DNA of 41,789 nt from IMG/VR virus record IMGVR_UViG_3300017962_000024, positions 1 through 41,789 of that record; one strand, written 5' to 3'. Position 1 is the stretch's first letter. The number at the start of each line of letters is the position of its first letter. The translations under genes and the position numbers were made by a program. The notes beneath the pieces are model-generated. The model worked only from the letters and a program-made list of their open reading frames with translations, was not told where the DNA came from and made no database searches. Source of the stretch: a virus. Below, one piece after another: positions 5,665-41,789 of the stretch.

Positions 5665-5672
5665 TATTTATT
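5665..5672 (-). promoter_or_regulatory. Late promoter box upstream of the 197-aa and fibre genes
   Basis: AATAAATA on the minus strand, one mismatch to TATAAATA. It contains the TAA stop of the giant gene and lies 21 bases before the next ATG. It could give fibre genes expression independent of read-through over the 15-kb gene. Confidence 0.5.
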
Positions 5673-8600
5673 CAGGATGCTCATATGTTCCTGCACGTAA
5701 GAATCGTGCTATAGAATTTTGTGCTGTTCCTAGTGTTTCGTTATCTTTTTTCCAAATTTGGCCTTGCTTTTTAATAACTGTAACTCTAGTTTGTTCCTGT
5801 GGTATTTCATTTAAAACTAAGCTGTTATTTGCGACATCAAACTCAGCTGTGACTATTACATCTCCGTCCGGGCTTGTTTGAGCTTTGGTAGGATCGTATA
5901 CAGCAATAGTATTTTTATTCAGTCTTCTTCCGCCAACAAACACTTCGACTTGATTTTTATCTGTTACATCAAAGTTTACTGCAAATGTGTTTGTATATCC
6001 ATCTGCAATGGCATTATAAACCAAATTTGTATCTCTATATGGTATTGTTTTATCTCTATTTTGGTTATAAACTTTAGTTCCTGTTGCATGCACATTAGGA
6101 ACGCCTGTTCCTAGAGTTCCTCTGCGTAATTGTCTAAGTGTATTACCTTCTTTGACAAAATATTCTATACGTTCTCCATTTACAAACAATATACCAGGAA
6201 GATTTTTGCCTTTATCTGGCTCCGGCAAATCTGTTCCATCAACTACTTCTATACGTAAATCATCATATGCTAAATCTTGCAATAAAGTCGTTGCTGCTGC
6301 ATCTAGTCTTTTAAAGTGTGTTCTATTAAGAATGTCTTTAAACTGTCTATAACTAAAGCCATCAACACTAACATCGGCAGCAAAATGTATTACTTCAATA
6401 ACATCATTTTGGTCTGGTAATTCTGTTAATCTAACTTTCCTACGATTGTCTGTGATATAATAATCAACGCTAGGAGTAAGAAGTGTGCCGTTCTTTGTTA
6501 CCCAAACATACTGTGCATCTAGTGCAGGCTTGCGTAATTCAAGTTCTCCTGTTGTCAATCTTAAATAAGATCTTACTTCTTGGTCACTTATCAAATTCAT
6601 ACGTCTTACAACATCGTATTGAGATTTTTCTATATCCTTTAAGTCATGATTACTATACTGATAAACAAATATCTTTTCGTCCGCTGCTGGCACATCATTA
6701 AGTACAAGTTGTGTTCCTGCTATAGTGTATTCGCTTTCTGAAATATTGTAAATTTCTACACTATCACCTGGTACGCCGTATTCATCACTAAGTAAAATTG
6801 CGCTATTTGCAATATCTAAGCGCCATTGTTCAGGAGTAAATATTTCTTGGCCATTCAAAAATACCTTAAGTCCATCTGCAGACAATGATCCTGGAGGTTG
6901 CTGGAAAGACTCTAATCTGTATTCACGTTGATTATTTTGCGGTATAATATGGTTTATACTATATCCACTATTAAGTATAGTTTGTCCTACTTGGACAATT
7001 ACGTTGTGCTCAGTAGGTTGTGCATAAAATGGTGTGCCTTGTAGAGTAAACGTATTGTTTATACCATTACCTGTAAATTGATCAGTAACTACTTGGCTGT
7101 AACTAATTGCTTCGTTACTAGAAAATACAGAGTAATTAATAACATCACCGCCTTGTGCTTCTTGTTCAAGTATGACTGCAAATCTATTGTCTCCTTCAAC
7201 ATCATCCGCATAGTTGTAAGCAGTATATTCTACCGGCTGTCCATTTTTTGTTATAAAAATAGATTTTTCTTCGCTATATTCTTCATCAATCACAAACTGT
7301 GAAAGCACTCCTGTCAAAACAATTTCACCTAAATATTTTATACTTGCAGAAGTGCTTTGTTCTTGCACAATTATAGATAATTGCTTGTCAGCTTCTACAG
7401 GAATTGTGACAGATTTTGCACTCCAATCTATAGTATATTGAGTATCATTTAATATTTGTCCATCATATTTTACTAATACGCTATCTGCCGAACCAGGTAA
7501 TTGTCTAAATATATGTGTGTAATCACCACTAGTTGTTGTTTCATAATTAAAACAATAAACAATACCTTGCCCGCCGCTTTCTTTTGTATGAACCTTAATA
7601 TCTAAAGTATCATATACTGTACCAGGCACTAGTTCTTCTGTTTTTGCTTGTGTTGGTGACACAAATAGATCACCATCAGTAATTATTTCTTCTGCATTAA
7701 TACCTTGTGCAGTAGTATAACCTAAATCGCCTCCTTCTAATGCAGTATCATAACTTGCTAAATCAGGGATAATACTACCATCACTAGTAATTTTTCTAAC
7801 AATGAATATGTCACCATCATTTAATTCAATTCCTAAATCTTGTGTATTGATTATTGTCTGTTGTCCATCGCCAGTAACACTGTTAACTACTGCAAATGGA
7901 TTAGCAGGATCACCTTCATCAAAATTAGGATCATCTATTCTCACACCATTTTTGTATAAATTATAAACTACACCATCTTCTAATGCTTGGGTTAGTTCAA
8001 CTGCAATAGTTGATCCGTCACTATAGAAAACTTCATCTTCAAATGTATTTTCGTATGAATCCCAAGAATCAGTAAACCATGGTTGACTATCCCATCCGCT
8101 TGGGCCACCGAAATCAAAACTTCTTACTTCAACTCCGCCGTAGTCTATTCCTGTCATTAATTGGTTTAGTTTTTTACCAAACATATTTCCTGTAGGATTG
8201 TAGGCAAAATTTATTCTGTCTGCTGCGTCTAACAGTTCAATAGACTTATAATATTCTACTCTAATAGTTGATACAGCGTTAAATGGATTAGTGAATGTAA
8301 TTCTACCATGTTTGTATGTATAACTGCCTTCACTAACTTCAACATTTGTTACAGTATATTTGCTTCTCAACTGCTCTTCATCGTTTACAAAAATCTTAAT
8401 TTTATCTACTTCTACGTTTACTGGCCATTCTAAATCGTAAACTGTGTCTATATTTGTTGCAGTGAATGTTTCTGTAACATCAAGATTTTCTAAAGTGAAT
8501 TCTCCGACAGTTCTATCAAACTTAATTTTTACTGTAGGTGTTCTTACAACCCCTTTTGTAAGTCTTGCATATGCTTTTGCCTGAGTTCCAGTTTCATTTT

Positions 8601-11600
8601 GTGATCCTTCAATTGTTATAGTAGGAGGACTAATAAATCCTTGTCCAGGATTCAAGACTTGTATTTTTGTAACTCTGCCATAACCTAAAAACGCTTGTGC
8701 AGTTGCAGTTGTATTACCATCGCCTATGACTACTTTTGGCGGCAATGTATAACCAGAACCTCCATCTTTGACTATTATTTCATCAATACTAAATCCTAAA
8801 TTATCAAAGAAGTGCTTTCTAGGATAAATGTTCACAGCATCAGCTACATTAGATTTTACAATCCCGTCGAGCACTTGGGTGCTAATTGGTTGTATATTAC
8901 CAAACTGATCGTTGTATTGCGGTGGCAAATCAAAATCTGTCACAACTGAATTTGTAGGTTGAGTATAATCGACACTAGATACAAACTCTCTAATATTAGT
9001 TTTATACGGTTTAACTTCTTTTACATATTCTTCAAAATATTCTTTATTATCTTGTTCGAATGTTCTATCCTGTGTAAGTGCACCTAGTTTGTGATTAATT
9101 TTTATAAAACTACTCTTGAACATCCAATCAACATTTTTTTGCTCTGCAAAAATGTATCTCAATGAACTAAAAAATAATTGATTGTATTCTACAGATAAAT
9201 CATTAATAAAAATATTATCTCTTATACATTCTAAAATTATCCTTAATTCTATTGCAGGATTATTATCATAAATTCCATTATCAAAACTTCTATTATCATA
9301 ACCTGACGCATTAGAATTGATATTATATAAAGAATCATTTAATTCAATTGTACCGTTTTGTCTGCCTATAGTCTTATAATCTGATGTATAATCTTCTGCA
9401 CCACTTGTACCAATTCTTTCTAATAATAACCATCCAGAAGATCCTATGTCTTTTATTTTTACTATAGATCCAAAACGTGGATTTAGAGCTTTTAATTGGT
9501 AGCTTTGATCAATTTCATAATCAACCTGTGTAAATTGATTGTAACCGTTTGCATACCAATCAATGTAATTCCAATAGCGTCTTACATCAAAAGATTGAGA
9601 TTGTCTTCTAAACCAAGTTTTACTAATTTCATTATAGCCATAAATTGTCCAATAATTTATACTTGTGCTGTCAGACGCAACTAAAACACTGAAGCGTCTA
9701 ACAAAGATTGAAGTTGTATTGTCATATCCTGATCCTTGTTGAATTATATTTGCAGAAGTAACTCTACCTAAGTTATCAATAGATAACTCAATTTCTGCAC
9801 CTGAGCCTTTACCTCTTAATTCAAAAGTGGGCGGTGTTTTATATCCACGTCCTGTTTGTTCTATATCAACTCTTACCACTCGTCCATTTAACACAATAGG
9901 TTTGAGTATAGCTTGAGATAATTTGTTTGTACTTACATATTGTAACTCTTCAAACGTATCTATTTGTAAATCATATTCATTTGTTTTTTCTGTAGGTAAA
10001 TTATCAAATCTATTTAATTCACTTATATCAAAATCGTCTGTGATTAAATTATCTTTGAAAATTAAATTAATTCGTTCTATAGACTGCTTTAGTGCTTCTA
10101 TGCGATTAACAAACATACTTTGTCTTGGTCTATTCAAAATACCATATTTTTGTGGTATAGGTAATGATGAATCAGGAACATTCCTACCATTAGTGTCAAA
10201 ACCAATTAAGCTATCATGCCACTTGCGGTCTAAGTCTTCCGGTATTTCAGATGTAGGATCACCGTCTGCAATAAGTTTGTATTGCTTGTGTAGATTAGAA
10301 TCCAATGACGGTTTTTGCTTATATTTTATGTTGAGAACAATATCATTACTAGATACTAGATTATCAAAATTATTTAGAATTATCCTGTCTGTACCTACAA
10401 ATGAAATATACCTATAATTATTTTCTCTAGGACGGCTAATTAATTGTGCAATATCATAAACACTAAGATTTCTATTTTTTATAGACGGTATTGTTTTCTT
10501 ATTTTTCACCCAGAAATAATAACGTGTAGTGAATGATTGAGACAAGTCATCATAAATTAATTTGGCACTATATTTTCCATCTCCGTATAACGGCTCTCCT
10601 GAAATACCTTGCGGTGTCCCTTTATCTGTGTCAGCTAATGCAGACCATCTGCTAGGAAGTATATTACTTTCTACCCATTCGTATACATCAATTGTTGCAC
10701 CTTCTGTAAGTAAGTTCCAATTATTTTTTTGATAGTTTATACTACCTTGGTAAGGATAAACAAATCTTGCCGTGCTTAGATCCCACCAAACTTGTCCTAC
10801 ATGATTATCTAACCAAGCCTGTTTTGTATCTACGTTTGATGACCCAATTACACCTACGTTATAGTATGCAGGATCAAAAAATGTTTTAAATGTAACATCT
10901 TGTTCAGCAGGACCTGCTATCTTGCCCTGCAAAGGATCAATATAATCTACATAACTAACTATTTTATTTTCTTTTTTATTATAAAGGAAAGCACCTTCTA
11001 TCAAATCTAAATTGACAGGTGGACTAATGTTTTTATATATATTCCAGGCAAAAGTATTTTTCGGCTTTCGATAATCTAAAAATACACCCTTTATATCCTG
11101 TTCTGCATAGAAAGGAATACCGACATAAACATGATTGTTGTTTGCTAATAAATTTTTGCCAAATTCATATGTTGAATCTTCAAATCTAAAATTCTCGCTA
11201 TATGTATATTCACCTTCAATATTTTCATATACATATACCATTCCTGCATCTATACTTGTATTAGAAAATTCAGTAAATCCTAAATCAAATGTAGTTTTTT
11301 GACTATCAAACGTAGTTGGATTTTTTTGATCTCCATTAAGACTTGTTATTACTAAATTATCATTTGTAATATCTACTTTATATCCAAATAATTCAGAAAG
11401 TTCTTTAGTAGGGCTTGTTATAATTTGAACGTTATCAGAAAAACTACCAGCACTTTGAGTATAAATGTAAACAGCACCTTGATTTAATCTGTTGACTGTA
11501 GTCTTTGGAGCTGATACAGCAATTTGTAAGCCATCAGGTTTAACACTTATCTCATTGCCCCAGTCTTCAATTTCGTTTGGTGCTTCTATAATTTCGTAGA

Positions 11601-14600
11601 GTTTGTACTTACTGTCTTCTTTTCTATAAATTACAAGATTTTTAGACTTTGTGCTATCAGATTTAGTAAGTTCTGCAATGACTGCTAAAACTTGACCGTT
11701 CTGATTTGCATCAAATTTTTTGCTGAACTCTAGGATATTTGTTTCTGGATCATATACATCTTCACCATAAAAGTTGTTACCTGTAAGATTTGGCAAGTAA
11801 CCTACATAATCAAATTCGTTAGTAACTAATCTCCAGAAAACCGTATTAAACTCTACGCCTGCTGCTACATTAGTAGATGCTTCGTAAAACGCATTGTCTT
11901 TTAATACAATAGAACCTTGTTGATAACCATAAGTATTGTCCCAATTTCCTCTATATGCAGGATCGACTCCATAGCGCCAACTAATATTATCCCAGTTTAC
12001 TGGGTTGGTAATTGACTGTGTAGCAGATTCGTCTGAGTCTTTATTTGCACGGTAATAATTATCCTGATAGACAACTATATCGCCTGCATTATACTGGGTA
12101 AGTTGATAATTGCCTCTGAATCTATCTACTTCTTCAGTACCATGGTAGAATATTTCTATTGAACCAGGATCGAATCTTGTTTCTTTATCTAAGTCTCCTC
12201 TAGATCCTACTAACAGCGTATATAGTTTATCTTGTTTTTTTATTTTTACTTCGTCACCAAAATATCTTTCAGCACTATTGTACTGGCTAACAAGAAGTTT
12301 ATCATAATCATATGCACCGTTCTCTTGTCTTCTAAATATTGCAACTACACCTTCATTAGCATAACCGCTAGAAGTTCCTCTTGCATCTCCTTGGATATTG
12401 TAAACTTGTGTATAATCTTTGTTTAGTTTTGTAGGATGATTAGGTAGTCTTGCAATACCACTTTCAAAATTCTCTCTATAGAAATAATATTCTGCATCTA
12501 GCACTGCTGGATTATCTACAACATCAAAGTTTCCTGACTGATTTTCAAAAACTAATAAATCTCCAATTACAGCACTTCCTAAAATAATATTATTGTTTAC
12601 ATCTTCGATAGTTCCTACTACACGGTCTACATCTAATTCGTCTCTTGCTGTTCTACGTATTTGGAATCTACCTATATTAGACAATTGTGTCCATGATCCG
12701 CTTATAACTTTTACATATACTCTTACATTATTAAACTGTTGTTGAGCAAAAACTATCTCAGCTGAAGAAGTAGTTGTGCTTGTAAGGGCTAAGCCGCCCT
12801 GACCGTCTCGTGGAAATTGTACATCTTCAATAATATCGCCAACTTGTATTCTAAAAGGATTTCCCTCGAAATCAAATTCTGTGTACTCAAAGTCAATATA
12901 CCCATCCCAAATATCATAAATTTGATGTGATTGATTTAATTGCTGTATATCAAATCCCGAGCCATTAAGTGTAACTGGTGAATTATCTAAATCATAAAAA
13001 TTAAACAATAATGATTCGTTTGCAGGATCACCCTTTCCTACAAAGAAGTTATTTGATGCGATATCTTCTTGGAATGATTTTCCTATTCTCACAACCCATA
13101 AATTACTAGGCTGCGGTGCTTCAATTCCATCCGGATCTCCTGTATAAGACAAATGGGTCATAAAGCTAGAACGATTATTCTCATTTACAAAGTTTCCTAC
13201 AATAGAAACAGTGTCTTGAATATTAGAGTAAATGTTTAAAGGACGTTCACTATCTGCAGGTTTAACATCTGCATAAACTAATCCTCGTCCTATATCAGAA
13301 TATCTACCATTATTGCTATAAGTAAATCCAGTATCTATATACCAAAATCCACCTACAGCGTCTGATGTTGCAAATGTAGATTCTTGTGTATAAAAACCTA
13401 CAAAGTTTTTTGTAGCACTTACATACAGTTCGTCTGTTACAGCCATTACACCGTTTATATCTTTGAGATAAATTACAGCACTGTCTCTGTATATTGCAAT
13501 ATAATACACAATACCGCTACCTGTATCTGTTTCTATTTGATCACCTACACTAGGCAAACTAACAAAAGTCTCAACAAAAAGAACTGCATCTATTTTTGCT
13601 ACTATTTCGTGCTCTTGCGATAAAAACTCTGGCGTTATACTTGGAATTTGGCCGTCAAATGGAATATAAATATCTTGGGTAGGATATGCATAACTTTTTC
13701 TGTTCCAGTATAAATTAATTCTATCGCCTGTACCTACTTCATCATTAATCCTGCCAGTAGTGCCTAAATACATATCAATAGGTGCTCTAATTAACAAATG
13801 GTCTATATTTGAAGTAGGCAATCCAAAGTTTCCTGACAGTAATAATTTTAAAGTTGTACTGTCAGTATCTTCTTGGTTTACAAGGTTAACATAGCTATCA
13901 AAAGTAGAGTAAGGTTGTGTAGAAATTTGCGGTTCTATTTTTTTGTTAGCTTTCCAAAATGACTCTCTGTATTTTACAATCTGATTTTTTGAATACGTAG
14001 TGTCTGGATCAAAAGTACCTTTGAATTGTGTTTTGACCCCTGATGCATGCGGGACACCTACAACTAAATATTCTCCATCTTCGCTTACATCTATAGAATA
14101 ACCAAATTGATCATGAGAATCAATAATATCATTTGCTTCTCTAAGGTCTAGTTCTTGTGTAAGTTGTAGCCTTGCAGTTTCTTTACTTCTTTTGTAGACA
14201 AATACCTTGCCGCTTTCGTCGCCACTAGCAGCTACAAAGAAATTATTGTTGTCTGCTGTTGCAGCCATTGACCCTGTAAAATCTTGTCTAGTGCTATCCC
14301 ATTCGGATGGATTATCATACTGGTCTAATAAATTATATACTTTTTTGTTTTGCAGTACTGACCAATTATTATTAGAATAATTATCTACCCAAATTTTCTG
14401 ATTATCATATATTTTTTCATTTACAATAGCATTGACATTTGATAGATTATTTGTCCTTACTTCCCTTAGTGTTGTTACAGTAAGTTTTTCATCTGCAAAA
14501 CCAATTATGTCATTTACAGTTGGTACAACAATAAATGCTAATTGATTTTGTATTTCATATATTTCGTAAAATCCATTGAGATTGTAAGATTGGGCGCCTC

Positions 14601-17600
14601 TTACAGCGATAAAATCTCCTACTTTCACATAAGAATCTAACCACTTATCTACTTCTAGTGTATAAATTAATTTGCCTTCAGGATTTAGAGCTGTAGCTTC
14701 TGTCAAGCTTAGAGCTGTCAAATTTAGATTTTCGTGTTGATACACCGTCCAATTTTCATTTATTTGATTAGTCAGGTGTATGTATCCGCCAAGTTTGAAT
14801 ACATTTACATTTCCTAAAGCAAGATCTTCTTTAGCAGAAACATTAAAATCTATATCAGCTTCGTCTACATATCCTACACTTTTGACATATTCAATAGTAT
14901 TATCTAAAACAGGAAAAACCTGACTTGTATAATCGCTAGGCTTATCTTTTAAATCCGAAGGTAAAATTCTATAAATTTTATCAAAGTTTTTTGTTGGTAA
15001 TGAATCTGTAAACAATACCGCTTGCGGGCTTTCAGTAAGTTTAGTGTCGGATAATTCTACTTCAATTTGTTTAATATCTTCTGTAGATCCGTACATAGCG
15101 GAGCGCACTGCCCATTCTTCATAAAAGTCAATGCTATCTTCTCCACTAGAACTTAGAGCACCAAAAAGTTTTGTAATTGCATTTTGAGAACCTTTTTCTT
15201 GGATCATACCTTGGTAGAATTTCAGTTGGCTTACATCATCTACAATCAAATTACTTAGATATTCTCTTTTTTGAAATCCAATAAATCTTTCGGCGAGTTC
15301 TTGTAAAGAATTGTCAAAACTTGCACTATTATTATCATAATAATCATTAAATTGATTAATTCTATAATCAAAATTTGTAAGTAAGTCAGGTTCTGGCTTT
15401 TCTGATAATCTATACCACTGATTGTAGTTTATATCAGCAGAACCTGACACGTTTTCAGTCGCAACATAATAATACTGCTTATATTTTATAAGACTTCCTA
15501 TTTTGTAATCTTGGAATGGTGTGAAATCTTTTGTTACTGCATCGTCATATAAGAAACCAGGAATATTTAAACTGCCATCCCATTCGTCTGAACGATATCC
15601 AGATACTCTCATTCTTTTTTGCCTGTATCCAGAAGCAGGATGATAAATCACATCATTAAATATTGTGGTATTGTCAATTACAACAACGTGTTCTTTTTGC
15701 ACTAAGGGCAAGTTTGCGCCATACAAACCTAAATCTGTGTCAATTAGTTGTATTCCAAAACTATTACCATCTCTCAGTAAACTAGCAAAGTTTCTTTCTA
15801 AAATATCCCCGTTACTTGATATAACATGACTGTCATAAAATTTGTCGAATATATCGTCTACAACAAGATAATTTGTACGGAATCTTAATTCATTTGCTGA
15901 AGGACTTAAACTAATTACTGTTCCATTAGACCAGCCTTGTGTTGTCCAAAACATAAATTCTTTTGCAACAGATGTCCAATCATTTACAATTTCATCTGTT
16001 ACATCATCGAAAATAAAACCTAGTGTTTCGAGGTATTTTCCGTATCCTAATAAAAAGTCTACAACCTCTTGAACAGTAGGTAGAATTGATCCGTATGGTA
16101 ACTGATTAATTTTGTATGTATCGTAATTTTTATAAAACTCAGCAACTCTGCCGCCTACACTAGGTAAGTTAGGAAGTTTTGCTAAAAATTCTTGATCAAA
16201 AGTATTACCACTTGTAAAATCTGTAATGACTCGATAGTATGCATTTAAATGAAATACAATTGAATCTTTCTTAAAAACTTTTTGCTCAGTCCATAATGAA
16301 AATTCTTCGCTTATTCCGCCTACAGATACAGAATATTTTGTAGATCCAACCAAAGGATTTAGGAAATTAAATAATGGATAATTTTGATTATATCCAGATA
16401 TTTTGAATCCTCCTGGTGTTTTTTCTACAATTACTCCACTATATAAAAAGTTTTCTACAGGTGAACTTGTGTTAAAAACTAAGTTATAATTTTCTTGTGG
16501 AACAAACACACCTGAAGTGCCTATATCATGCTTAGGAGATTTACTTTCTAAAATTAGATTCAGTTTTGCTTTGTCTGAAAAACCTGCAAGTCTAAAACTT
16601 AAATTAATTTCTAATTTTTTGACTTCTTCGACATAAGTTCTGTGTACAGACAAAATATCACTAGCAACTAGATTATAGATATAATTTACTAAGCCACTTG
16701 TCAAATTTCTTTGCGTTTCTTCATACGTATTTGGAAAAACTATATTTTTGTTTTCTATAAATTTGCCTGTATGTTTATACGTCCTTTGATTTCCTATGTT
16801 TATTGTCATATTTGCAACGTCAAATGCTTTTGCAAATGTATCTGCAGGATTTGACAACAGCATAGCACGAATGCAAGCAAAAGGAAAATCAGAACTCTTC
16901 CTCCATGCAGACTCTACAGGACTATAGTCGCCAAATTCAAAAGATTTGCTTGCAGCCCGCTGATTAAAATTTTGTACTACATTTGCTTCTAGAGGCGCTA
17001 GTAAATGCCCCTTTTCATCAACTGGAATAAAATTACGCAATCCGGGTCTAGCATATTTTTTATCTATTCTCGAATTATTAGGATCAGCAATTAATCCTTT
17101 TTCTATATTATCCCAAAGTATTAAATTATCACTTGTATAAGGAGCAGGTCCATAAACTTCTTCCCACCAGTCTGGTTTATTATTATAACCTTGTATATGC
17201 CACGGATGACTATGAGGTTTATCTGTATTAAAGACATTAAAATAAATTTTGCGCCAGAAGCCAGGAAGTTTATCTCCTCTTTCTGTGTTTCCTGCACTAT
17301 AATTGAATGTGAAAGAATTATTCAAATCGTATGCATTATTTGTAGCATAATCTAATTGCACAAATGTTTGCCATTCTGTAAAGTCTCTCAACATTATGTT
17401 ATTTTGAATTTGTTGAGGAACTTTATAACCTATGAAATCATTTCCTAAGAAACTATATACATCAATAGTGTTTTGATCATAGTCTACTTTAATGTTGTTA
17501 TAAATTCTTTTTTCTAATTCTAATTGCAGGCCATCTTTATAATCTTGGTAGCATAGAATTTGGCTACCATCATGTCCTACTATAAACGGTACACCTATAG

Positions 17601-20600
17601 GATAAGTTTCGTAGTCAAAACTATCATTACCTGCATAAGTGCTTATACCTTGTGGCATGTAAAACTTTGTATTAGATCCTCTAAAAAATATTTCTTCAAT
17701 TACACCATTAGAATCATTTGCTACGGAATATTCTTCTGCTGACTTTTTAGTTGTAAACACTGGATAAAACCATCCATGTTTATTTGCATATTTTCCTTTT
17801 TCTGGTTGTGCATAAATTTTATACGGACCTGCTGATAATAAAACTTCTCTATTCATAGAAGTATCATCTAATGTAATGTGCGGATACCAGGTTGGATATA
17901 AACCTAATTTAGATGGAGTAGGCGGAATAAAACTTCCGTCAGTAGAATTGTATTCGTAAATGTCTATTACATCGCCATCATTTTTTTCTGCTGTAACAAT
18001 TACAAATCCTTCATTATTAAAAGTATAGTCACGTTTATAAACTAATTGTGTTCCGTTTAGATAGATATAAACTGATTTTTCAGATAGATTATCTAAAGAA
18101 AATGGATTAGTTAAAGGATAGTAGTCTATATTTTTATCAACTACAGCATATGTATTTCTAATGCTCGGTCCATATGCAATCATATCGCTAAAATAAAAAG
18201 GTCGTGTTTTATTTTTGTCTTTGTTTAATTCTTGTAATATTTTATCAAAGTGTATATTTACTTCGCCGTCAAAACCTAACTTATCTGACATATCTGCAAA
18301 ATTTCTTTTGAAATCCATATATTTAGATTTAGAATATTGCAGAGCCTTAATAATATTAAAATCTTTACTTGTGAAATGGTAAATTGCGTTTGCTAAGCCT
18401 GCATCATGCTTGACAAATCTTTTGCCAAATCTTGATATATTTTTTATATCTCTCAGATTATTGTTACCAGGGTATATACCTTCAAAATCGTTTATGTCTT
18501 CTATCATGCTTCTAACATGATCAAAAACTTCTCCTAATGTAAACTCTTTGATATCTTCATTTAATGGATTTCTCTCAAGTGAAATAGGAAGTTCATAATA
18601 TCCATTTTCGTTTTTAGTTGCAGAACTATGAGTTTTAACAGTAATAAATTCGCCTTCTTGCAAATCATTTGTTAAATTAATATAAACGTTTTTATCTCTA
18701 GATTCTAAATTATAATCTTTACCTTTTGCTAGTAATAAATCTCGTTTGTAGACGTGGACAGTAAGATCATCTAAATCTGCTGGATTTTTGTAAACATCAA
18801 TTTTAAAATTATTTTTATTTCCAAGCGAATATTGTATATCTCTAACAACATATTGTTTAAATCTAGTAGGTGTTGTTGACCAACTATTTACATACGCAAA
18901 AGTTTCTCTACTTCTATATTTTCTCAAAAACGCTGTATCAGTTTTTATTGTTATTAAAGTATCTTCATCTTGGATTGAAAACCTATCTGTCAATAAGTTA
19001 AATTCAAAAAGTATATCACCTGAATTTTGTATGTTACGATAGGATAAAGGAAATCCTAATTCAGGATCATTAGTTCCTGTTCCTTCCTTGTAAGAAAATA
19101 TTTTTGTACCTTTGAAAGTTGTACTATTGAAAACTGTAGGATCGTTATATGCATTTCCTTGTGGACAACATAAATCAAATAAAGGAGGTTGATTAATTTT
19201 ATTTTTTGTTTGAGCTTGTATCCATTTATTTTCATGAAAATGGAATGTTGTACCAGCAAACTTTTTTCCTTTAGTAACAAATACAGTTTCTAGGTCAAGA
19301 GGATCAGTGTCTTCTGTCTCCAAAAGTTGTATAAGTCTATCATTATTGACTGTAACAAAATTTACTGTGAATATTTTACCATAAACTAAAGGATCTTTAT
19401 CCTCAGTGAACAAAACTCGCATGCCCTGTTCTAAATTTTGTCCGTCGACGCTATATCCTTGTTGTCCTTGTATTTTAGAAAAAATATCTGTTGTAAATCT
19501 ATCTATTAAATCAATATCTTGTTTTGCAGAAACTCCAAAATTAAATAACTTTATGCCTGCGTCAAATTCAATAATAGGTCTAGCTGCACGATAGTTGTCA
19601 TCTAGATTTTCAGAAATATTATTATATTCAAAACTTTTTAGAACTACATCTTTATGAAACCATCTATTATTTCTACTCCAAGGATTTTTATCAGCTGACG
19701 ATCTGTTTATAGTAATATAATCTTTTTGTAAGGGATAATTATTAGCACTTGCAAAAGGAAAAACATCAAAGTTTTCTGCGTCGAAAGGAACGTCTATATC
19801 TTCTGTGTATGCAGATGGAATAGTTAAACTTTGCTTCGATACTAGTGTAATTTTATCGCCTACACCTTCAATGTACCAGTCACCAGTAGTGTATTTTTCA
19901 GGATATATATCTCCTTGGAATCTTATACACAATCCATTTGTAAATTCAATACCGTTAGAAGAAGTATATTGTTTTTTTCCTAAAACGTCATCTTCAATAT
20001 TCAAAAATGTATTATCTTCGATATCAAATATTCTAATTTGTCCACTAGTATTAACATCATTTTGGCTGATATAAAACAGTCTTTCGGGTGCATTGAATGG
20101 AATAGTAAATTCTATTGTACCTGATTCTACAAAAGCTACTGCTACTTCGTTTCCAACCTCGTCAAATTTTCTAATACCATCAGGATACAATGTTGAGACG
20201 TTTTCGTCAGGTTCTATAGTAAAACTTGCATCTTCAGGTAAAACAACAAATTCGCCGATGTCATATTCGTTACCGTATAGTTCTGCATCGAAAAGACCAT
20301 CGCCTCTAATTCCTTGTTGTCCTGCAACTAACAAAGCTACTCCAGGAGTAAATGATCTACTTATTGCAAATGCAATTGGATGGCCCGGAGTATCTATTTC
20401 AAATCTATACGTTTGTCCTCTATATAATTTTAATTTTGGATTACGGGTAAATCCATCATTAAAAACATACGCAAAATTATCTCCTTGGTCTTCTAGTGTA
20501 ACTGTGTATGTGCTTGTAACTTCTCTAGTCTGTCCCCTTACAGGCACTGTCATAGGGCCATTTGGCAACCAGTAATATTCTCTGAAATTAGTAAAAGTAT

Positions 20601-21018
20601 CCCAATTTATATGAGGTGTCCAACTATAGCTGTTTACTGTGTTAAGTAAATCATGATTATCAATATTACCGCCAAAGTATTTTATTATGTTTACAAAATC
20701 TTTGTAATCTTTAACTAAATCTACATTTTGTAGGTTGTCTCTCAAAACTATGCTAGGTTCAAGTTGATAATTATTTCTTTGCGTAGAAATATCCTCGACA
20801 TAATTATCGCCTATTTCAAACGACTCACTATATTTTCTTCCAACGTAGCCATCAATTTTCTCTGCTACACCATTTGAAATTAATTGGTCTAGTGTTCCTT
20901 GTAAAAATTTTCTATTAGCTTCTGTTCTAAAAAATTTAGGTAAAAAATTTATAGATTTCTTTTTATTATCATCTGGCGTAGGTAGTGCACTTTCATTTTG
21001 ATTGTCGTTAAGAGCCAT
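5668..21018 (-). CDS. Giant 5116-aa multidomain baseplate/tail structural protein (T4 gene 7 position)
   Basis: One uninterrupted 15.3-kb frame. The ATG overlaps the gp6 stop (TAATG), so translation is probably coupled. By position after gene 6 it corresponds to T4 gene 7 (1032 aa), but it is about five times longer; the equivalence is inference. Visible parts: an N-terminal charged/helical region (1-150); a cupredoxin-like domain at ~184-331 that keeps NPKLKLYRGQTY and GHP but lacks the usual metal-ligand loop; CBM5/12-like modules near 1572-1616, 1829-1872, 2329-2361 and 2966-3062; FG-GAP-like propeller blades scattered over ~2240-3311 (DQFGYSIDVSEDG, ELFGYKVDI, YEFGKNLLA); G-x-GY-x-x-PP segments at ~3713-3779 and ~4076-4136; a VKPYKTNIREF motif near 4000; and a C-terminal array of short beta modules each containing a V-x-V/F-x-NG-type turn. 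It probably forms a large baseplate arm or brush with host-surface-binding modules. Confidence 0.8.
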   Translation of the reverse strand: MALNDNQNESALPTPDDNKKKSINFLPKFFRTEANRKFLQGTLDQLISNGVAEKIDGYVGRKYSESFEIGDNYVEDISTQRNNYQLEPSIVLRDNLQNVDLVKDYKDFVNIIKYFGGNIDNHDLLNTVNSYSWTPHINWDTFTNFREYYWLPNGPMTVPVRGQTREVTSTYTVTLEDQGDNFAYVFNDGFTRNPKLKLYRGQTYRFEIDTPGHPIAFAISRSFTPGVALLVAGQQGIRGDGLFDAELYGNEYDIGEFVVLPEDASFTIEPDENVSTLYPDGIRKFDEVGNEVAVAFVESGTIEFTIPFNAPERLFYISQNDVNTSGQIRIFDIEDNTFLNIEDDVLGKKQYTSSNGIEFTNGLCIRFQGDIYPEKYTTGDWYIEGVGDKITLVSKQSLTIPSAYTEDIDVPFDAENFDVFPFASANNYPLQKDYITINRSSADKNPWSRNNRWFHKDVVLKSFEYNNISENLDDNYRAARPIIEFDAGIKLFNFGVSAKQDIDLIDRFTTDIFSKIQGQQGYSVDGQNLEQGMRVLFTEDKDPLVYGKIFTVNFVTVNNDRLIQLLETEDTDPLDLETVFVTKGKKFAGTTFHFHENKWIQAQTKNKINQPPLFDLCCPQGNAYNDPTVFNSTTFKGTKIFSYKEGTGTNDPELGFPLSYRNIQNSGDILFEFNLLTDRFSIQDEDTLITIKTDTAFLRKYRSRETFAYVNSWSTTPTRFKQYVVRDIQYSLGNKNNFKIDVYKNPADLDDLTVHVYKRDLLLAKGKDYNLESRDKNVYINLTNDLQEGEFITVKTHSSATKNENGYYELPISLERNPLNEDIKEFTLGEVFDHVRSMIEDINDFEGIYPGNNNLRDIKNISRFGKRFVKHDAGLANAIYHFTSKDFNIIKALQYSKSKYMDFKRNFADMSDKLGFDGEVNIHFDKILQELNKDKNKTRPFYFSDMIAYGPSIRNTYAVVDKNIDYYPLTNPFSLDNLSEKSVYIYLNGTQLVYKRDYTFNNEGFVIVTAEKNDGDVIDIYEYNSTDGSFIPPTPSKLGLYPTWYPHITLDDTSMNREVLLSAGPYKIYAQPEKGKYANKHGWFYPVFTTKKSAEEYSVANDSNGVIEEIFFRGSNTKFYMPQGISTYAGNDSFDYETYPIGVPFIVGHDGSQILCYQDYKDGLQLELEKRIYNNIKVDYDQNTIDVYSFLGNDFIGYKVPQQIQNNIMLRDFTEWQTFVQLDYATNNAYDLNNSFTFNYSAGNTERGDKLPGFWRKIYFNVFNTDKPHSHPWHIQGYNNKPDWWEEVYGPAPYTSDNLILWDNIEKGLIADPNNSRIDKKYARPGLRNFIPVDEKGHLLAPLEANVVQNFNQRAASKSFEFGDYSPVESAWRKSSDFPFACIRAMLLSNPADTFAKAFDVANMTINIGNQRTYKHTGKFIENKNIVFPNTYEETQRNLTSGLVNYIYNLVASDILSVHRTYVEEVKKLEINLSFRLAGFSDKAKLNLILESKSPKHDIGTSGVFVPQENYNLVFNTSSPVENFLYSGVIVEKTPGGFKISGYNQNYPLFNFLNPLVGSTKYSVSVGGISEEFSLWTEQKVFKKDSIVFHLNAYYRVITDFTSGNTFDQEFLAKLPNLPSVGGRVAEFYKNYDTYKINQLPYGSILPTVQEVVDFLLGYGKYLETLGFIFDDVTDEIVNDWTSVAKEFMFWTTQGWSNGTVISLSPSANELRFRTNYLVVDDIFDKFYDSHVISSNGDILERNFASLLRDGNSFGIQLIDTDLGLYGANLPLVQKEHVVVIDNTTIFNDVIYHPASGYRQKRMRVSGYRSDEWDGSLNIPGFLYDDAVTKDFTPFQDYKIGSLIKYKQYYYVATENVSGSADINYNQWYRLSEKPEPDLLTNFDYRINQFNDYYDNNSASFDNSLQELAERFIGFQKREYLSNLIVDDVSQLKFYQGMIQEKGSQNAITKLFGALSSSGEDSIDFYEEWAVRSAMYGSTEDIKQIEVELSDTKLTESPQAVLFTDSLPTKNFDKIYRILPSDLKDKPSDYTSQVFPVLDNTIEYVKSVGYVDEADIDFNVSAKEDLALGNVNVFKLGGYIHLTNQINENWTVYQHENLNLTALSLTEATALNPEGKLIYTLEVDKWLDSYVKVGDFIAVRGAQSYNLNGFYEIYEIQNQLAFIVVPTVNDIIGFADEKLTVTTLREVRTNNLSNVNAIVNEKIYDNQKIWVDNYSNNNWSVLQNKKVYNLLDQYDNPSEWDSTRQDFTGSMAATADNNNFFVAASGDESGKVFVYKRSKETARLQLTQELDLREANDIIDSHDQFGYSIDVSEDGEYLVVGVPHASGVKTQFKGTFDPDTTYSKNQIVKYRESFWKANKKIEPQISTQPYSTFDSYVNLVNQEDTDSTTLKLLLSGNFGLPTSNIDHLLIRAPIDMYLGTTGRINDEVGTGDRINLYWNRKSYAYPTQDIYIPFDGQIPSITPEFLSQEHEIVAKIDAVLFVETFVSLPSVGDQIETDTGSGIVYYIAIYRDSAVIYLKDINGVMAVTDELYVSATKNFVGFYTQESTFATSDAVGGFWYIDTGFTYSNNGRYSDIGRGLVYADVKPADSERPLNIYSNIQDTVSIVGNFVNENNRSSFMTHLSYTGDPDGIEAPQPSNLWVVRIGKSFQEDIASNNFFVGKGDPANESLLFNFYDLDNSPVTLNGSGFDIQQLNQSHQIYDIWDGYIDFEYTEFDFEGNPFRIQVGDIIEDVQFPRDGQGGLALTSTTTSSAEIVFAQQQFNNVRVYVKVISGSWTQLSNIGRFQIRRTARDELDVDRVVGTIEDVNNNIILGSAVIGDLLVFENQSGNFDVVDNPAVLDAEYYFYRENFESGIARLPNHPTKLNKDYTQVYNIQGDARGTSSGYANEGVVAIFRRQENGAYDYDKLLVSQYNSAERYFGDEVKIKKQDKLYTLLVGSRGDLDKETRFDPGSIEIFYHGTEEVDRFRGNYQLTQYNAGDIVVYQDNYYRANKDSDESATQSITNPVNWDNISWRYGVDPAYRGNWDNTYGYQQGSIVLKDNAFYEASTNVAAGVEFNTVFWRLVTNEFDYVGYLPNLTGNNFYGEDVYDPETNILEFSKKFDANQNGQVLAVIAELTKSDSTKSKNLVIYRKEDSKYKLYEIIEAPNEIEDWGNEISVKPDGLQIAVSAPKTTVNRLNQGAVYIYTQSAGSFSDNVQIITSPTKELSELFGYKVDITNDNLVITSLNGDQKNPTTFDSQKTTFDLGFTEFSNTSIDAGMVYVYENIEGEYTYSENFRFEDSTYEFGKNLLANNNHVYVGIPFYAEQDIKGVFLDYRKPKNTFAWNIYKNISPPVNLDLIEGAFLYNKKENKIVSYVDYIDPLQGKIAGPAEQDVTFKTFFDPAYYNVGVIGSSNVDTKQAWLDNHVGQVWWDLSTARFVYPYQGSINYQKNNWNLLTEGATIDVYEWVESNILPSRWSALADTDKGTPQGISGEPLYGDGKYSAKLIYDDLSQSFTTRYYFWVKNKKTIPSIKNRNLSVYDIAQLISRPRENNYRYISFVGTDRIILNNFDNLVSSNDIVLNIKYKQKPSLDSNLHKQYKLIADGDPTSEIPEDLDRKWHDSLIGFDTNGRNVPDSSLPIPQKYGILNRPRQSMFVNRIEALKQSIERINLIFKDNLITDDFDISELNRFDNLPTEKTNEYDLQIDTFEELQYVSTNKLSQAILKPIVLNGRVVRVDIEQTGRGYKTPPTFELRGKGSGAEIELSIDNLGRVTSANIIQQGSGYDNTTSIFVRRFSVLVASDSTSINYWTIYGYNEISKTWFRRQSQSFDVRRYWNYIDWYANGYNQFTQVDYEIDQSYQLKALNPRFGSIVKIKDIGSSGWLLLERIGTSGAEDYTSDYKTIGRQNGTIELNDSLYNINSNASGYDNRSFDNGIYDNNPAIELRIILECIRDNIFINDLSVEYNQLFFSSLRYIFAEQKNVDWMFKSSFIKINHKLGALTQDRTFEQDNKEYFEEYVKEVKPYKTNIREFVSSVDYTQPTNSVVTDFDLPPQYNDQFGNIQPISTQVLDGIVKSNVADAVNIYPRKHFFDNLGFSIDEIIVKDGGSGYTLPPKVVIGDGNTTATAQAFLGYGRVTKIQVLNPGQGFISPPTITIEGSQNETGTQAKAYARLTKGVVRTPTVKIKFDRTVGEFTLENLDVTETFTATNIDTVYDLEWPVNVEVDKIKIFVNDEEQLRSKYTVTNVEVSEGSYTYKHGRITFTNPFNAVSTIRVEYYKSIELLDAADRINFAYNPTGNMFGKKLNQLMTGIDYGGVEVRSFDFGGPSGWDSQPWFTDSWDSYENTFEDEVFYSDGSTIAVELTQALEDGVVYNLYKNGVRIDDPNFDEGDPANPFAVVNSVTGDGQQTIINTQDLGIELNDGDIFIVRKITSDGSIIPDLASYDTALEGGDLGYTTAQGINAEEIITDGDLFVSPTQAKTEELVPGTVYDTLDIKVHTKESGGQGIVYCFNYETTTSGDYTHIFRQLPGSADSVLVKYDGQILNDTQYTIDWSAKSVTIPVEADKQLSIIVQEQSTSASIKYLGEIVLTGVLSQFVIDEEYSEEKSIFITKNGQPVEYTAYNYADDVEGDNRFAVILEQEAQGGDVINYSVFSSNEAISYSQVVTDQFTGNGINNTFTLQGTPFYAQPTEHNVIVQVGQTILNSGYSINHIIPQNNQREYRLESFQQPPGSLSADGLKVFLNGQEIFTPEQWRLDIANSAILLSDEYGVPGDSVEIYNISESEYTIAGTQLVLNDVPAADEKIFVYQYSNHDLKDIEKSQYDVVRRMNLISDQEVRSYLRLTTGELELRKPALDAQYVWVTKNGTLLTPSVDYYITDNRRKVRLTELPDQNDVIEVIHFAADVSVDGFSYRQFKDILNRTHFKRLDAAATTLLQDLAYDDLRIEVVDGTDLPEPDKGKNLPGILFVNGERIEYFVKEGNTLRQLRRGTLGTGVPNVHATGTKVYNQNRDKTIPYRDTNLVYNAIADGYTNTFAVNFDVTDKNQVEVFVGGRRLNKNTIAVYDPTKAQTSPDGDVIVTAEFDVANNSLVLNEIPQEQTRVTVIKKQGQIWKKDNETLGTAQNSIARFLRAGTYEHPE

Positions 21019-38109: not shown

Positions 38110-38559
38110 ATGCATTGGACTTATGAAGGCAAACAAATTGATACTATACCAGATGAATACGAAGGCTTTGTTTATCTCATAACCAATCTAAAGACTGGGC
38201 AAAAGTATATAGGCAAGAAACTAGCAAAGTTTAAAACTACAAAGCCACCTTTAAAAGGCAAAAAGAACAAACGCAGAGGCTACAAAGAATCAGACTGGCG
38301 TGACTATTGGGGATCATCTGATAGACTCAACGCTGATGTTGAAGCACTAGGCCCAGAAAACTTCACAAGAGAAATTCTATACCTATGCAAAGGCAGGGGC
38401 GAAATGTCCTACATAGAGGCAAGAGAGCAATTTGACCGCCGTGTATTAGAGAGCGACGAGTATTACAATGGAATTATTAATGTTAGAGTTGGCGGTTCCG
38501 ATAAATTGCGACAGGCATTGCTAGAACATAGCATCAAGGCAAAACAATCCAACACATAA
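38110..38559 (+). CDS. GIY-YIG endonuclease (Seg-like, putative homing endonuclease)
   Basis: 149 residues. The GIY-YIG core is visible: GFVY at 19-22, YIGKK at 33-37, a basic loop (KKNKRRGYKES, 51-61), W-x-x-YWGSS at 63-70, and a candidate catalytic Glu at 103 in YIEAREQF. The remaining C-terminus (FDRRVLESDEYYNGIINVRVGG) could help bind DNA. T4 carries several free-standing Seg enzymes of this family, which cut DNA and spread their own locus. No intron is obvious around it. GC rises within the gene from about 38280 and stays high through the following non-coding region, unlike the genes upstream, which suggests separate ancestry. It begins four bases after the oxygenase-like gene. Confidence 0.85.
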   Translation: MHWTYEGKQIDTIPDEYEGFVYLITNLKTGQKYIGKKLAKFKTTKPPLKGKKNKRRGYKESDWRDYWGSSDRLNADVEALGPENFTREILYLCKGRGEMSYIEAREQFDRRVLESDEYYNGIINVRVGGSDKLRQALLEHSIKAKQSNT

Positions 38560-39057: not shown

Positions 39058-39543
39058 ATGAGAATTAGTGACTTAGATGAATCAACATTAAATGAATTTA
39101 TTCCTTTAACTAAAAAAGGAAGAGAAATTCGTCGTGCTGAAAAAGCTGGTGCTGCTGATTTAAATGATAATGTTACACGTCTTACAAAAGAACTTGCTGC
39201 GTTTCTTGGAACTCAAGGAAAAAGATTAAAAACAGCAACAACTGACGATGTTGTTCAATTCTTAAAAGGAAAAAATGTAGATACTAGTGACATAGGAACA
39301 AGTGATCCTATGAATCCAAAACGTATTGAAAAGATATTTACAGCAAAAGTTCAAAAGAAAATGGCAGGTCAAAGTGTTGCTACTCCACAACCTAGTGCAG
39401 AGCCTCAAAAAGATACTCCTAAAGCTGCTCCTGTTAAAGTGTCAAGTGCATATGCTCAAACAAAAAAAGCAGCTCTTAGTTTAAATGCAAAAGAAAAACG
39501 TAGACTAGCTGATCAAATACTAAAAAGTATAAAGGCACGTTAA
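39058..39543 (+). CDS. 161-aa Ala/Lys-rich protein, function unknown, late-expressed
   Basis: Residues 1-~100 are helical (MRISDLDESTLNEFIPLTKK, then NDNVTRLTKELAAFLG). Residues ~104-130 form a Pro/Ala/Ser/Gln linker (VATPQPSAEPQKDTPKAAPV). The C-terminus is a basic helix (AKEKRRLADQILKSIKAR). There is no membrane segment, signal peptide or recognised motif. It is basic and small enough to be an internal or accessory virion protein, but this is only a guess. The ATG at 39058 is preferred because TAGGAG lies ten bases upstream; an out-of-frame ATG at 39053 would read ATG-TTA-TGA, a two-codon mini-ORF overlapping the start. The stop overlaps the stop of the convergent 72-aa ORF. Confidence 0.75.
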   Translation: MRISDLDESTLNEFIPLTKKGREIRRAEKAGAADLNDNVTRLTKELAAFLGTQGKRLKTATTDDVVQFLKGKNVDTSDIGTSDPMNPKRIEKIFTAKVQKKMAGQSVATPQPSAEPQKDTPKAAPVKVSSAYAQTKKAALSLNAKEKRRLADQILKSIKAR

Positions 39544-39758
39544 AAGAAAGGCATTCCGCTTTTCTTTGTTGTTTCTAAATTTTCTTTGATAATATCACCA
39601 ATTAAACTTTTATCTTCATTGCAAAGATTGTAAGCTTCATCGAGTGTGATGCTGCCACGCATGTACCAGCATATTTTAAAAAGTTCAGCTTTTAATTCTT
39701 TTTGGTAACTTTCTAGCTTTTTTGATTCTTCTAGGATCTTGTCTACACTAAGAGGCAA
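39540..39758 (-). CDS. 72-aa ORF downstream of gp26: gp51-like or -1 frameshift extension
   Basis: 72 residues from TTG at 39758, helical and charged (ESKKLESYQKELKAELFKIC, then GSITLDEAYNLCNEDKSLIG). It begins 5 bases after the gp26 stop and lies in the -1 frame relative to it. The frame is open back through the end of gp26, so it can be read as a C-terminal extension. Its own start is weak: TTG with AAGGA only two bases away, and both the TTG and part of that site lie in the 5' arm of a 9-bp stem. T4 has gene 51 directly after gene 26, so positional homology to gp51 is possible, though T4 gp51 is 249 aa. The stop is tail-to-tail with the 161-aa gene. Confidence 0.7.
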   Translation of the reverse strand: MPLSVDKILEESKKLESYQKELKAELFKICWYMRGSITLDEAYNLCNEDKSLIGDIIKENLETTKKSGMPFF

Positions 39759-40636
39759 GATCCTTATGCGAAAAAATTTGACTGATCAAACACAACAGGC
39801 AATGTCCATTTACTTGGTGCGCCAGCTTCTACCTCCTCGTCAGTGCTAGAAATTTCTAAAGGCTGTGTTGAAAACATTTCTTTTTGTTTGTCAAGATGTT
39901 TTGAAAGACTTGTGTAAAAACTTTTGTCAACGTTTGCAATAAATTCTTCAATGTGCAAAGGATTTGTTACTTCTTCGTCTTCTATTTTAATTTTTACAAT
40001 ACTTTTTGTTATAGTAAAAACTGTAAGCTCAGTAAGTTTTCTAAAACTATCTCCAAATTTAGATAGTTTTTCTGCTTCCCCCATGTCGTCGTCATTTACT
40101 AGAGCAAAAATTCTTTGTTCTTCAAATGTTTTTAAAGCAGCTTCTGTGTATTCTTTGTAGTTCAATGGTCTTAGGGTAACTTCAAAGTTTTCAATTTGAA
40201 TAACATCTTCAAACTGACATGTTACTAATCTGTTGAGCATTTTACGTAGATCAACACTGTATGTTTTTTCTATATTAGTGTTAGGTACTGTAGCATGTAA
40301 ATCAAGTGTTTCGCCATATGTTGCAATTCTGATTGCAATCAATAGTGCATCAAGATCTACGCTTGGTAATCCCCAAGCATTTTTTATTGCAGGAACACAG
40401 CTTTGTATTACATCAACCGTAGACTGACCGTTAAGCAAAGCATCAGGTGTTTTGATAGCTAATTCATCTTTTGCTGTCATTGCATAAACAGGCAATTCGC
40501 CATTCTCAGGCATTTCTAGTGCGCCTGGAGGATAATACTTTCCTTGACTAGGAAGTGTTACAAATACTTTCGGGGTTCTAAAGTATTTCTTTAGTGGGTT
40601 TTGCTGTTCATATTGCGATGGATTAAAATCGGCCAT
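39540..40636 (-). CDS. Predicted -1 frameshift fusion (G/GT-like tail assembly chaperone long form)
   Basis: If ribosomes slip back one base on A_AAT_TTT or T_TTT_TTC at 39779-39770, gp26 residues 1-289 continue as R-I-R-I and then into the 72-aa ORF, giving about 365 residues. The long form adds a helical, charged domain to the gp26-like body. Many tailed phages make two tail assembly chaperones this way (lambda G and GT), encoded beside the tape measure gene on which they act. The tape measure gene here starts 78 bases away on the other strand. The frame relation, slippery site, spacer and stem-loop are all directly visible; use of the signal is inferred. Confidence 0.6.
39733..39779 (-). 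promoter_or_regulatory. Candidate programmed -1 ribosomal frameshift signal
   Basis: Read on the minus strand, overlapping heptamers A_AAT_TTT (39779-39773) and T_TTT_TTC (39776-39770) sit in the gp26 reading frame, three and two codons before its stop. After a 5-base spacer (GCATA) comes AGGATCTTG (39764-39756), a 14-base loop, and CAAGATCCT (39741-39733), a perfect 9-bp stem. The spacer of 5 (8 from the first heptamer) is in the range typical for stimulatory structures. The 0-frame stop TAA lies at the base of the stem. Confidence 0.7.
39764..40636 (-). CDS. gp26: gp26-like baseplate hub / tail assembly protein (T4_baseplate family)
   Basis: 290 residues against 208 in T4 gp26. Family-like features: an N-terminal FRTPKVFVTLPSQGKYYPPG, then ELPVYAMTAKDELAIKTPDALLNG and VIQSCVPAIKNAW with the Asp/Leu-rich IRIATYG. 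The middle and C-terminal parts are helical (NYKEYTEAALKTFEEQR, DSFRKLTELTVFTITKSI). T4 gp26 is needed for hub assembly; members of this family may act as tail chaperones, which fits the adjoining divergent tape measure gene. A GGAG ribosome site precedes the ATG at 40636, and a perfect TATAAATA box lies at 40687-40680. The end of the gene holds a frameshift signal. It is separated from the main baseplate block, unlike in T4. Confidence 0.8.
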   Translation of the reverse strand: MADFNPSQYEQQNPLKKYFRTPKVFVTLPSQGKYYPPGALEMPENGELPVYAMTAKDELAIKTPDALLNGQSTVDVIQSCVPAIKNAWGLPSVDLDALLIAIRIATYGETLDLHATVPNTNIEKTYSVDLRKMLNRLVTCQFEDVIQIENFEVTLRPLNYKEYTEAALKTFEEQRIFALVNDDDMGEAEKLSKFGDSFRKLTELTVFTITKSIVKIKIEDEEVTNPLHIEEFIANVDKSFYTSLSKHLDKQKEMFSTQPLEISSTDEEVEAGAPSKWTLPVVFDQSNFFA

Positions 40637-40713: not shown

Positions 40714-41789
40714 TTGGCCGATCAAGTCGAAATAAGCAATGTAGGCGGCAATGATGGTGTTGCTAGTGAAGCAACACTTGCAAGTCTCGCAGCGGCACTG
40801 CAAAAAATAGCTGCAAAGTCCGGTATGGATCCTGCTTCTCAAGAAGCAAAACTTAAAAAAATTGCCAACAAAGCTACAGAAGATGGTATTACGATTACAA
40901 ACAAAAATACCAAAGCAGAACTTGAAAATACCAAAGTAACCAAAGAAGCAACCGGTGCAACTGCACAGTTTGCTAAAACTATTGCAGACGCATCTCTAGG
41001 TGCGATAGGCGATATTGTAGGATCTATTGTTAACTTTGGCATGGAGTTAGCATTTGGCGGCAATAGGTTAAGTGATTTTGCAGGATCTATTCCATTATTT
41101 GGCCAGTTCCTAGGACCGCTTGCTGGTATGATTGACAATAATGTTGATCAATTCCGTGACCTAAGCAAAGTAGGTGCAACATTTGGAACAGGTCTAGTAG
41201 GTTTACAGCAGGCTGCTGCAGAAGCAGGTATGCCATTAAATGAATTCAGTCAGCTAATACAAGATAATGCAATGATAATGAAAACCTTCGGCGGTGACGT
41301 TGCATCAGGGTCATTAGTATTCAGTAAAATGGCTAAAGAACTTAGAGACGGTCCTGGTAGAGAACTTATGAATATAGGTTTTACATCAGGTGAACTAAAT
41401 GATTTATTAATAAGCTATCAAGAATTACAGACACGACAGTTTACAGGTGATAGAATTCGCAACAGAGTAACTGCACAGAGCGCAGCAGAGTTTGGTGAGC
41501 AATTGCAAAAGCTTTCTACAGCAACAGGTCAACAGAGAGAACAAATACTAGAAGCAATGGAAGCACAGCGTGACGATGTAAGAATTGGTGCTGCTCGTTC
41601 TAGAATGTCAGCAGAAGAGTTTGAACGTTTTAGCGCAAACATAGGTACAGTAAGTGGTATATCCAAAGGACTAGCTGATGCTTTAGTAGACTTTGATGAC
41701 GGCATCCCTACAAATGACTCTACTCGTAGGCTGATGCAAATGAGTGACACCTTTAGAAACTTTGGAGACGAAGTTGAAAATATGAGTCC
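40714..41789 (+). CDS. gp29: Tail tape measure protein, N-terminal part (gp29-like; runs off window)
   Basis: 358 codons are present and the frame is open to the right edge. TTG at 40714 is the only usable start after the in-frame TAA at 40696, with GGAA about ten bases upstream. Residues 1-~95 are hydrophilic and helical (MADQVEISNVGGNDG, AALQKIAAKSGMD). A hydrophobic stretch follows around 95-140 (IGDIVGSIVNFGMELAFGG, IPLFGQFLGPLAGMI), then long amphipathic helices rich in Ala, Gln, Arg and Glu. This pattern is typical of tape measure proteins, which set tail length and are ejected with DNA. The gp26-like chaperone candidate next door supports the call; gp29 homology itself is inferred. A TATAAATA box lies 59 bases before the start. 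Confidence 0.7.
   Translation, partial: MADQVEISNVGGNDGVASEATLASLAAALQKIAAKSGMDPASQEAKLKKIANKATEDGITITNKNTKAELENTKVTKEATGATAQFAKTIADASLGAIGDIVGSIVNFGMELAFGGNRLSDFAGSIPLFGQFLGPLAGMIDNNVDQFRDLSKVGATFGTGLVGLQQAAAEAGMPLNEFSQLIQDNAMIMKTFGGDVASGSLVFSKMAKELRDGPGRELMNIGFTSGELNDLLISYQELQTRQFTGDRIRNRVTAQSAAEFGEQLQKLSTATGQQREQILEAMEAQRDDVRIGAARSRMSAEEFERFSANIGTVSGISKGLADALVDFDDGIPTNDSTRRLMQMSDTFRNFGDEVENMS

Follow-up and report, generated by a model that had tools for sequence, protein, structure and literature searches.

A conserved in-frame slippery heptamer at the end of a gp26-like gene points to short and long tail assembly chaperone forms in a virus and its relatives

A gp26-like gene in a virus recorded in IMG/VR is followed by a 72-aa open reading frame (ORF) in the -1 frame, which raises the question of whether the two are separately translated genes or the two parts of a single frameshifted gene encoding a short and a long tail assembly chaperone (TAC). 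The window analyzed here is the whole stretch of 41,789 nucleotides that makes up positions 1 to 41,789 of the record IMGVR_UViG_3300017962_000024, and the features of the locus are listed in Table 1. The original prediction proposed a chaperone of the G/GT type, made in short and long forms by -1 frameshifting, and this proposal is strongly supported by conservation over about 50 distinct lineages. We place the probability that -1 frameshifting at T_TTT_TTC makes the short and long chaperone forms at about 0.93.

Table 1. Features of the chaperone locus, in window coordinates
Feature	Position	Strand	Basis or remark
Gp26-like gene, putative short chaperone form (TAC-N), 290 aa	39764..40636	-	PF12322 / phrog_150
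Slippery heptamer T_TTT_TTC, in frame, 3 nt ahead of the stop codon	39770..39776	-	kept in 42/42 and 80/80 loci
TAA stop of the short form, 3 nt past the heptamer	39764..39766	-	final base doubles as the first base of the stem
Stem of 9 bp with a 14-nt loop, 5 nt past the heptamer; candidate stimulator, limited to closer relatives	39733..39764	-	pairing, compensatory changes
Extension in the -1 frame (TAC-C), 76 codons and a stop, counted from the slip site; predicted helical hairpin; probable homologue of the gp51 C-terminus	39540..39770	-	alignment, hhalign, model
72-aa ORF, TTG start	39540..39758	-	start not conserved
Divergent gene (5' part), probably encoding the tape measure protein; continues past the window end	40714..41787	+	homology to annotated genes

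The 3' end of the gp26-like ORF reads TCA AAT TTT TTC GCA TAA, in which the slippery run A-AAT-TTT-TTC occupies minus-strand positions 39779-39770. The encoded protein matches the family PF12322 (Pfam E 5.9e-9, 36 bits against a cut-off of 24.5) as well as phrog_150 (PHROG E 1.3e-12). The -1 frame contains no stop from the slip site down to the TAA at 39542-39540, and the predicted fusion product across the slip reads ...QSNFF-RIRILPLSVDKILEE... Downstream of the heptamer, the spacer GCATA is followed by a stem in which the arm AGGATCTTG (39764-39756) pairs perfectly with CAAGATCCT (39741-39733). The arrangement claimed in the original prediction, namely an in-frame slippery site before the gp26 stop, a 5-base spacer, a perfect 9-bp stem with a 14-base loop, and the 72-aa ORF in the -1 frame with no intervening stop, was thus found as described. 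There are 17 copies of TTTTTTC in the window where 23 are expected; the heptamer is common in this AT-rich DNA, and therefore the window sequence alone would not be proof. As judged from the sequences, the weight of the evidence lies in the position, frame and conservation of the heptamer and not in its mere presence.

Conservation was assessed by a scan of IMG/VR with seed peptides that excluded the slip site, which returned 80 relatives; with the window counted in, these reduce to 42 distinct loci whose end can be read. Because the seed peptides did not cover the slip site, this set is not selected for it. T_TTT_TTC stands in frame near the stop in all 42 of these close uncultured loci, and the -1 frame stays open for about 76 codons (76-77) past the slip in every complete close relative. 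The two phenylalanine codons of the slip site are invariant, TTT in 42/42 loci followed by TTC in 42/42, although TTC accounts for 20% of the phenylalanine codons elsewhere in these genes and five other well-conserved phenylalanine columns mix their codons (76-86% TTT). The contrast between the slip site and the other columns of the same genes is sharp, and it is given without a simple probability because the 42 loci share kinship. Among cyanophage-type loci in IMG/VR, the heptamer is present in 80/80 and the second frame is -1 in 78/78 readable cases.

Of the cultured phages examined that lie outside the T4 branch, a single one lacks the heptamer in frame and all others keep it. The same heptamer and -1 extension occur in Phosso, Paride, PA5oct, 121Q, EcMJ, Atu_ph07, XaC1, Erwinia 47, Klebsiella W12-3 and Desulfovibrio 7757, and the hosts of the cultured jumbo phages that carry the heptamer span Sinorhizobium, Agrobacterium, Pseudomonas, Escherichia, Xanthomonas, Erwinia and Klebsiella, in addition to the Desulfovibrio phage. 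In nearly all the loci compared, the next reading frame is -1 and codes for one protein family. Loss of the heptamer or a second ORF in another frame, named in the original prediction as observations that would speak against it, are absent from nearly all homologues compared outside the T4 branch, but Cygsa01 has ATT TTC instead of the exact heptamer, and in the cyanophage S-SCSM1 the heptamer is kept while an 11-nt insertion moves the gp51-like second ORF to the +1 frame. This arrangement in the Synechococcus phage (junction at L087:4680-4715) could stem from a misassembled sequence, from a -2 shift, or from separate translation having taken the place of the shift. The slip site, the frame, and the conservation of the parts on either side of the slip are direct observations.

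The stem-loop is less widespread than the heptamer. In the 11 distinct closest sequences, 90% of cells are paired in a 12-bp version of the stem, and 4 of its pairs have changed on both sides, above both shuffled and slid controls. Over all sequences the pairing drops to 74%, several relatives have no stem at this position, and RNAalifold found no consensus stem in the 41 aligned loci; the stem is therefore ruled out as a universal element. The covariation anticipated in the prediction accordingly holds for the closest sequences and is not general across relatives, and it may be particular to this clade. The lower stem repeats the codons for RIL and [KE]IL, and hence coding alone could explain part of the stem. 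A plausible interpretation of the pairing is a clade-specific candidate stimulator of frameshifting. It is unlikely that the stem-loop is instead an intrinsic terminator or another RNA element unrelated to frameshifting, as its perfect 9 bp right behind a stop codon might suggest, for it is followed by no T-run, the coding frame passes through it, many relatives do without it, and its lower part is partly set by the repeated codons.

A second alternative is that the gp26-like protein and the 72-aa protein are translated separately, the latter from its own TTG by coupling to the gp26 stop, with the T-run incidental. The window does have an in-frame TTG just past the stop, preceded at a few bases' distance by AAGGA, and the annotations of Phosso, 121Q and several others give two genes, the start of the second overlapping the stop of the first; in other phage records the extension appears as a separate hypothetical protein or as 'gp51'. 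This arrangement is, however, not shared by the relatives. An ATG, GTG or TTG occurs anywhere in the first 12 second-frame codons in 14/42 loci, leaving 28/42 with none, and a start combined with a Shine-Dalgarno (SD)-like motif is found in 6/42, leaving 36/42 without. Given how few loci have any start codon or such a motif, the partly buried TTG of the window is a local accident, and a conserved TTG start is ruled out. In a 39-sequence alignment, conservation of the extension protein begins at the first post-slip codon, upstream of any start: arginine occupies this codon in 42/42 loci, and nearly all go on to match R-[ILMV]-[RK]-[ILV]. Variation follows the third positions of the -1 frame, with summed entropies of 22.5 at position 1, 12.8 at position 2 and 31.3 at position 3. 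Together with the invariant TTT TTC codons of the slip site, these features make separate translation very improbable. Since most loci lack a usable start and the protein is conserved right from the slip, fusion is likely the normal route of expression of the second ORF; the prediction that fusion is the main route is in this respect sustained, whereas the start it placed partly inside the stem is not generally conserved. The -1 extension (73 aa; L082:6840-7058, the same gene in L094) is unannotated in the Paride and PA5oct records.

Least probable of all is a shift on A_AAT_TTT, which the original prediction had listed as an alternative heptamer and which is found in the window and most close relatives, because several lineages have AAG-, AAC- or CAA-TTTTTTC in its place with T_TTT_TTC unchanged, it is missing from the cyanophage-type loci and the cultured jumbo phages where T_TTT_TTC stays, and the invariant C of the TTC codon belongs to T_TTT_TTC only; as a conserved slip site A_AAT_TTT is thus ruled out.

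The frameshifted locus was also compared with genes 26 and 51 of T4, whose products are listed as hub assembly chaperones (PMC3004832). T4 gp26 and gp51 both match PF12322 (8.8e-64 and 3.9e-52, respectively), which marks them as paralogues of one Pfam family, and gp51 carries about 48 extra residues relative to gp26. Profile comparison by hhalign joins the extensions of the window clade to those of the jumbo phages and cyanophages (E 5.6e-17), and the latter to the gp51 C-terminus (E 5.3e-7). The direct profile comparison of the window-clade extension with gp51 was not significant, nor was that of the N-part with gp51, though PF12322 unites the latter two. The homology of the -1 extension to the gp51 C-terminus is hence indirect, running through the jumbo phage and cyanophage extensions. 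By the same comparisons, the 72-aa ORF would represent the C-part of gp51 only, and it is the frameshift fusion that corresponds to gp51. The link to the T4 26/51 pair drawn in the original prediction is therefore right in substance, given the shared PF12322 membership and C-terminal extension, but the 72-aa ORF is not itself gp51. Gene 51 of T4 is separate from gene 26 and divergent from it, and neither a slip site nor an open -1 frame was found at the end of T4 gene 26. With the gp51 C-terminus linked to the extension, T4 has two divergent genes for the short and long forms where this virus appears to have one frameshifted gene.

A tentative evolutionary reading, to which we give slightly less than even odds, is that the T_TTT_TTC frameshift is ancestral to the gp26 family outside the T4 (Straboviridae) branch, that T4 genes 26 and 51 arose when the gene was duplicated and the shift was lost, and that some clades, including this one, added a covarying 3' stem. 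If this reading is true, the shift would be common to cyanophages, to jumbo phages of 280-490 kb and to many uncultured viruses.

Structural models were obtained for the two parts of the predicted product. The AlphaFold2 model of the N-part (pLDDT 85) finds its best viral fold matches among predicted T4-like baseplate hub assembly proteins (E 5e-22). A fold search of the PDB with the N-part gave no match at E <= 0.001 and no solved TAC, and a PDB sequence search for a solved TAC returned nothing significant. The C-part is modeled as a helical hairpin (pLDDT 88) and, being too small for such a search, gave no fold matches. Fold search of solved structures detected no homology to lambda G or the HK97 TACs, and on grounds of fold the gp26-like protein is accordingly not placed in the lambda family. 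Further matches to the gp26-like model (E about 1e-3 to 1e-6) are uncharacterised proteins of ~450-600 aa in Ralstonia RSF1 and RP12, Erwinia Special G and Aeromonas PS1, which we take to be phiKZ-type giant phages; on the strength of the model these proteins are possible tail assembly chaperones.

The divergent neighbour is homologous (E 8.8e-22) to a gene annotated as tape measure in EcMJ and Erwinia SNUABM_47, and in relatives its family varies in length from 713 to 1504 aa. The product of this gene showed no sequence similarity to T4 gp29. Synteny, annotation and length variation thus agree with the original prediction that the neighbour is a tape measure gene, similarity to T4 gp29 does not, and we regard this identity as probable. 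In the PA5oct record, the tape measure candidate is marked as seen by mass spectrometry and the gp26-like protein carries no such mark, which is weakly consistent with absence of the latter from the virion.

Other features of the window include a single 5116-aa ORF at 5668-21018 on the minus strand, in a baseplate/tail region, and, near the chaperone locus, a segE-like GIY-YIG endonuclease ORF at 38110-38559 on the plus strand (Pfam E 3e-35). A convergent 161-aa ORF at 39058-39543 on the plus strand has a stop (39541-39543) that shares two bases with the extension stop (39540-39542), and its family matches are weak (phrog_16152, E 6e-4).

The slippage itself, its rate and the chaperone role are what we infer from this locus. 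Most ribosomes would terminate at the TAA and release the 290-aa gp26-like short form, TAC-N. Some would slip back one base on T_TTT_TTC, with Phe-Phe in the P and A sites, and read on in the -1 frame, yielding TAC-NC, a product of about 365 aa whose C-terminal domain is helical. If the analogy with lambda G/GT holds, the tape measure protein, probably the product of the divergent neighbour, would be coated by TAC-N, while tail tube subunits would be recruited through the C-domain. Recognition of the frameshift gives the right annotation to a gene that was overlooked or wrongly split in many jumbo phages and cyanophages, and it provides a simple junction peptide as a detection target.

Among known systems, phage lambda gpG/gpGT and related TACs were reportedly treated by Xu, Hendrix and Duda in 2004. 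Lambda-type TACs consist of a short form and a rarer -1 frameshifted long form, and their gene adjoins the tape measure gene (PMC10885494). The window resembles lambda in its predicted short and -1 frameshifted long forms and in the adjacent tape measure gene, which is probable in the window. It differs in that the gene is divergent to the probable tape measure gene and uses another slippery sequence, and no fold or sequence match to a solved TAC was detected. T4 genes 26 and 51 share PF12322 membership with the window, and gp51 has a homologous C-terminal part; unlike the window, T4 draws the two forms from two divergent genes, and the end of gene 26 has no slip site. The TAC locus of Pakpunavirus and Andersonviridae has a conserved T-rich slip site (GTTTTT) with a -1 frame open in all genomes (PMC12846349). 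It is like the window in its T-rich slip site and open -1 frame, these being different phage families likened by locus layout. Closest of kind are the T4-like phages themselves, in which Vladimirov et al. in 2022 are said to have identified gp26 as TAC-N and gp51 as TAC-NC and to have described frameshifting in several further groups of T4-like phages. For T4-like tail assembly chaperones and their poly-T slip sites, two papers (PMC10885494, PMC12846349) cite Vladimirov, Gautam and Davidson (2022, Virology 566:9-15). TAC-N and TAC-NC of T4-like phages share with the window the gp26/gp51 family PF12322, a poly-T slip site and a -1 extension. Frameshifted tail chaperones in T4-like phages were thus already published in 2022, and the locus in the window is a further real case.
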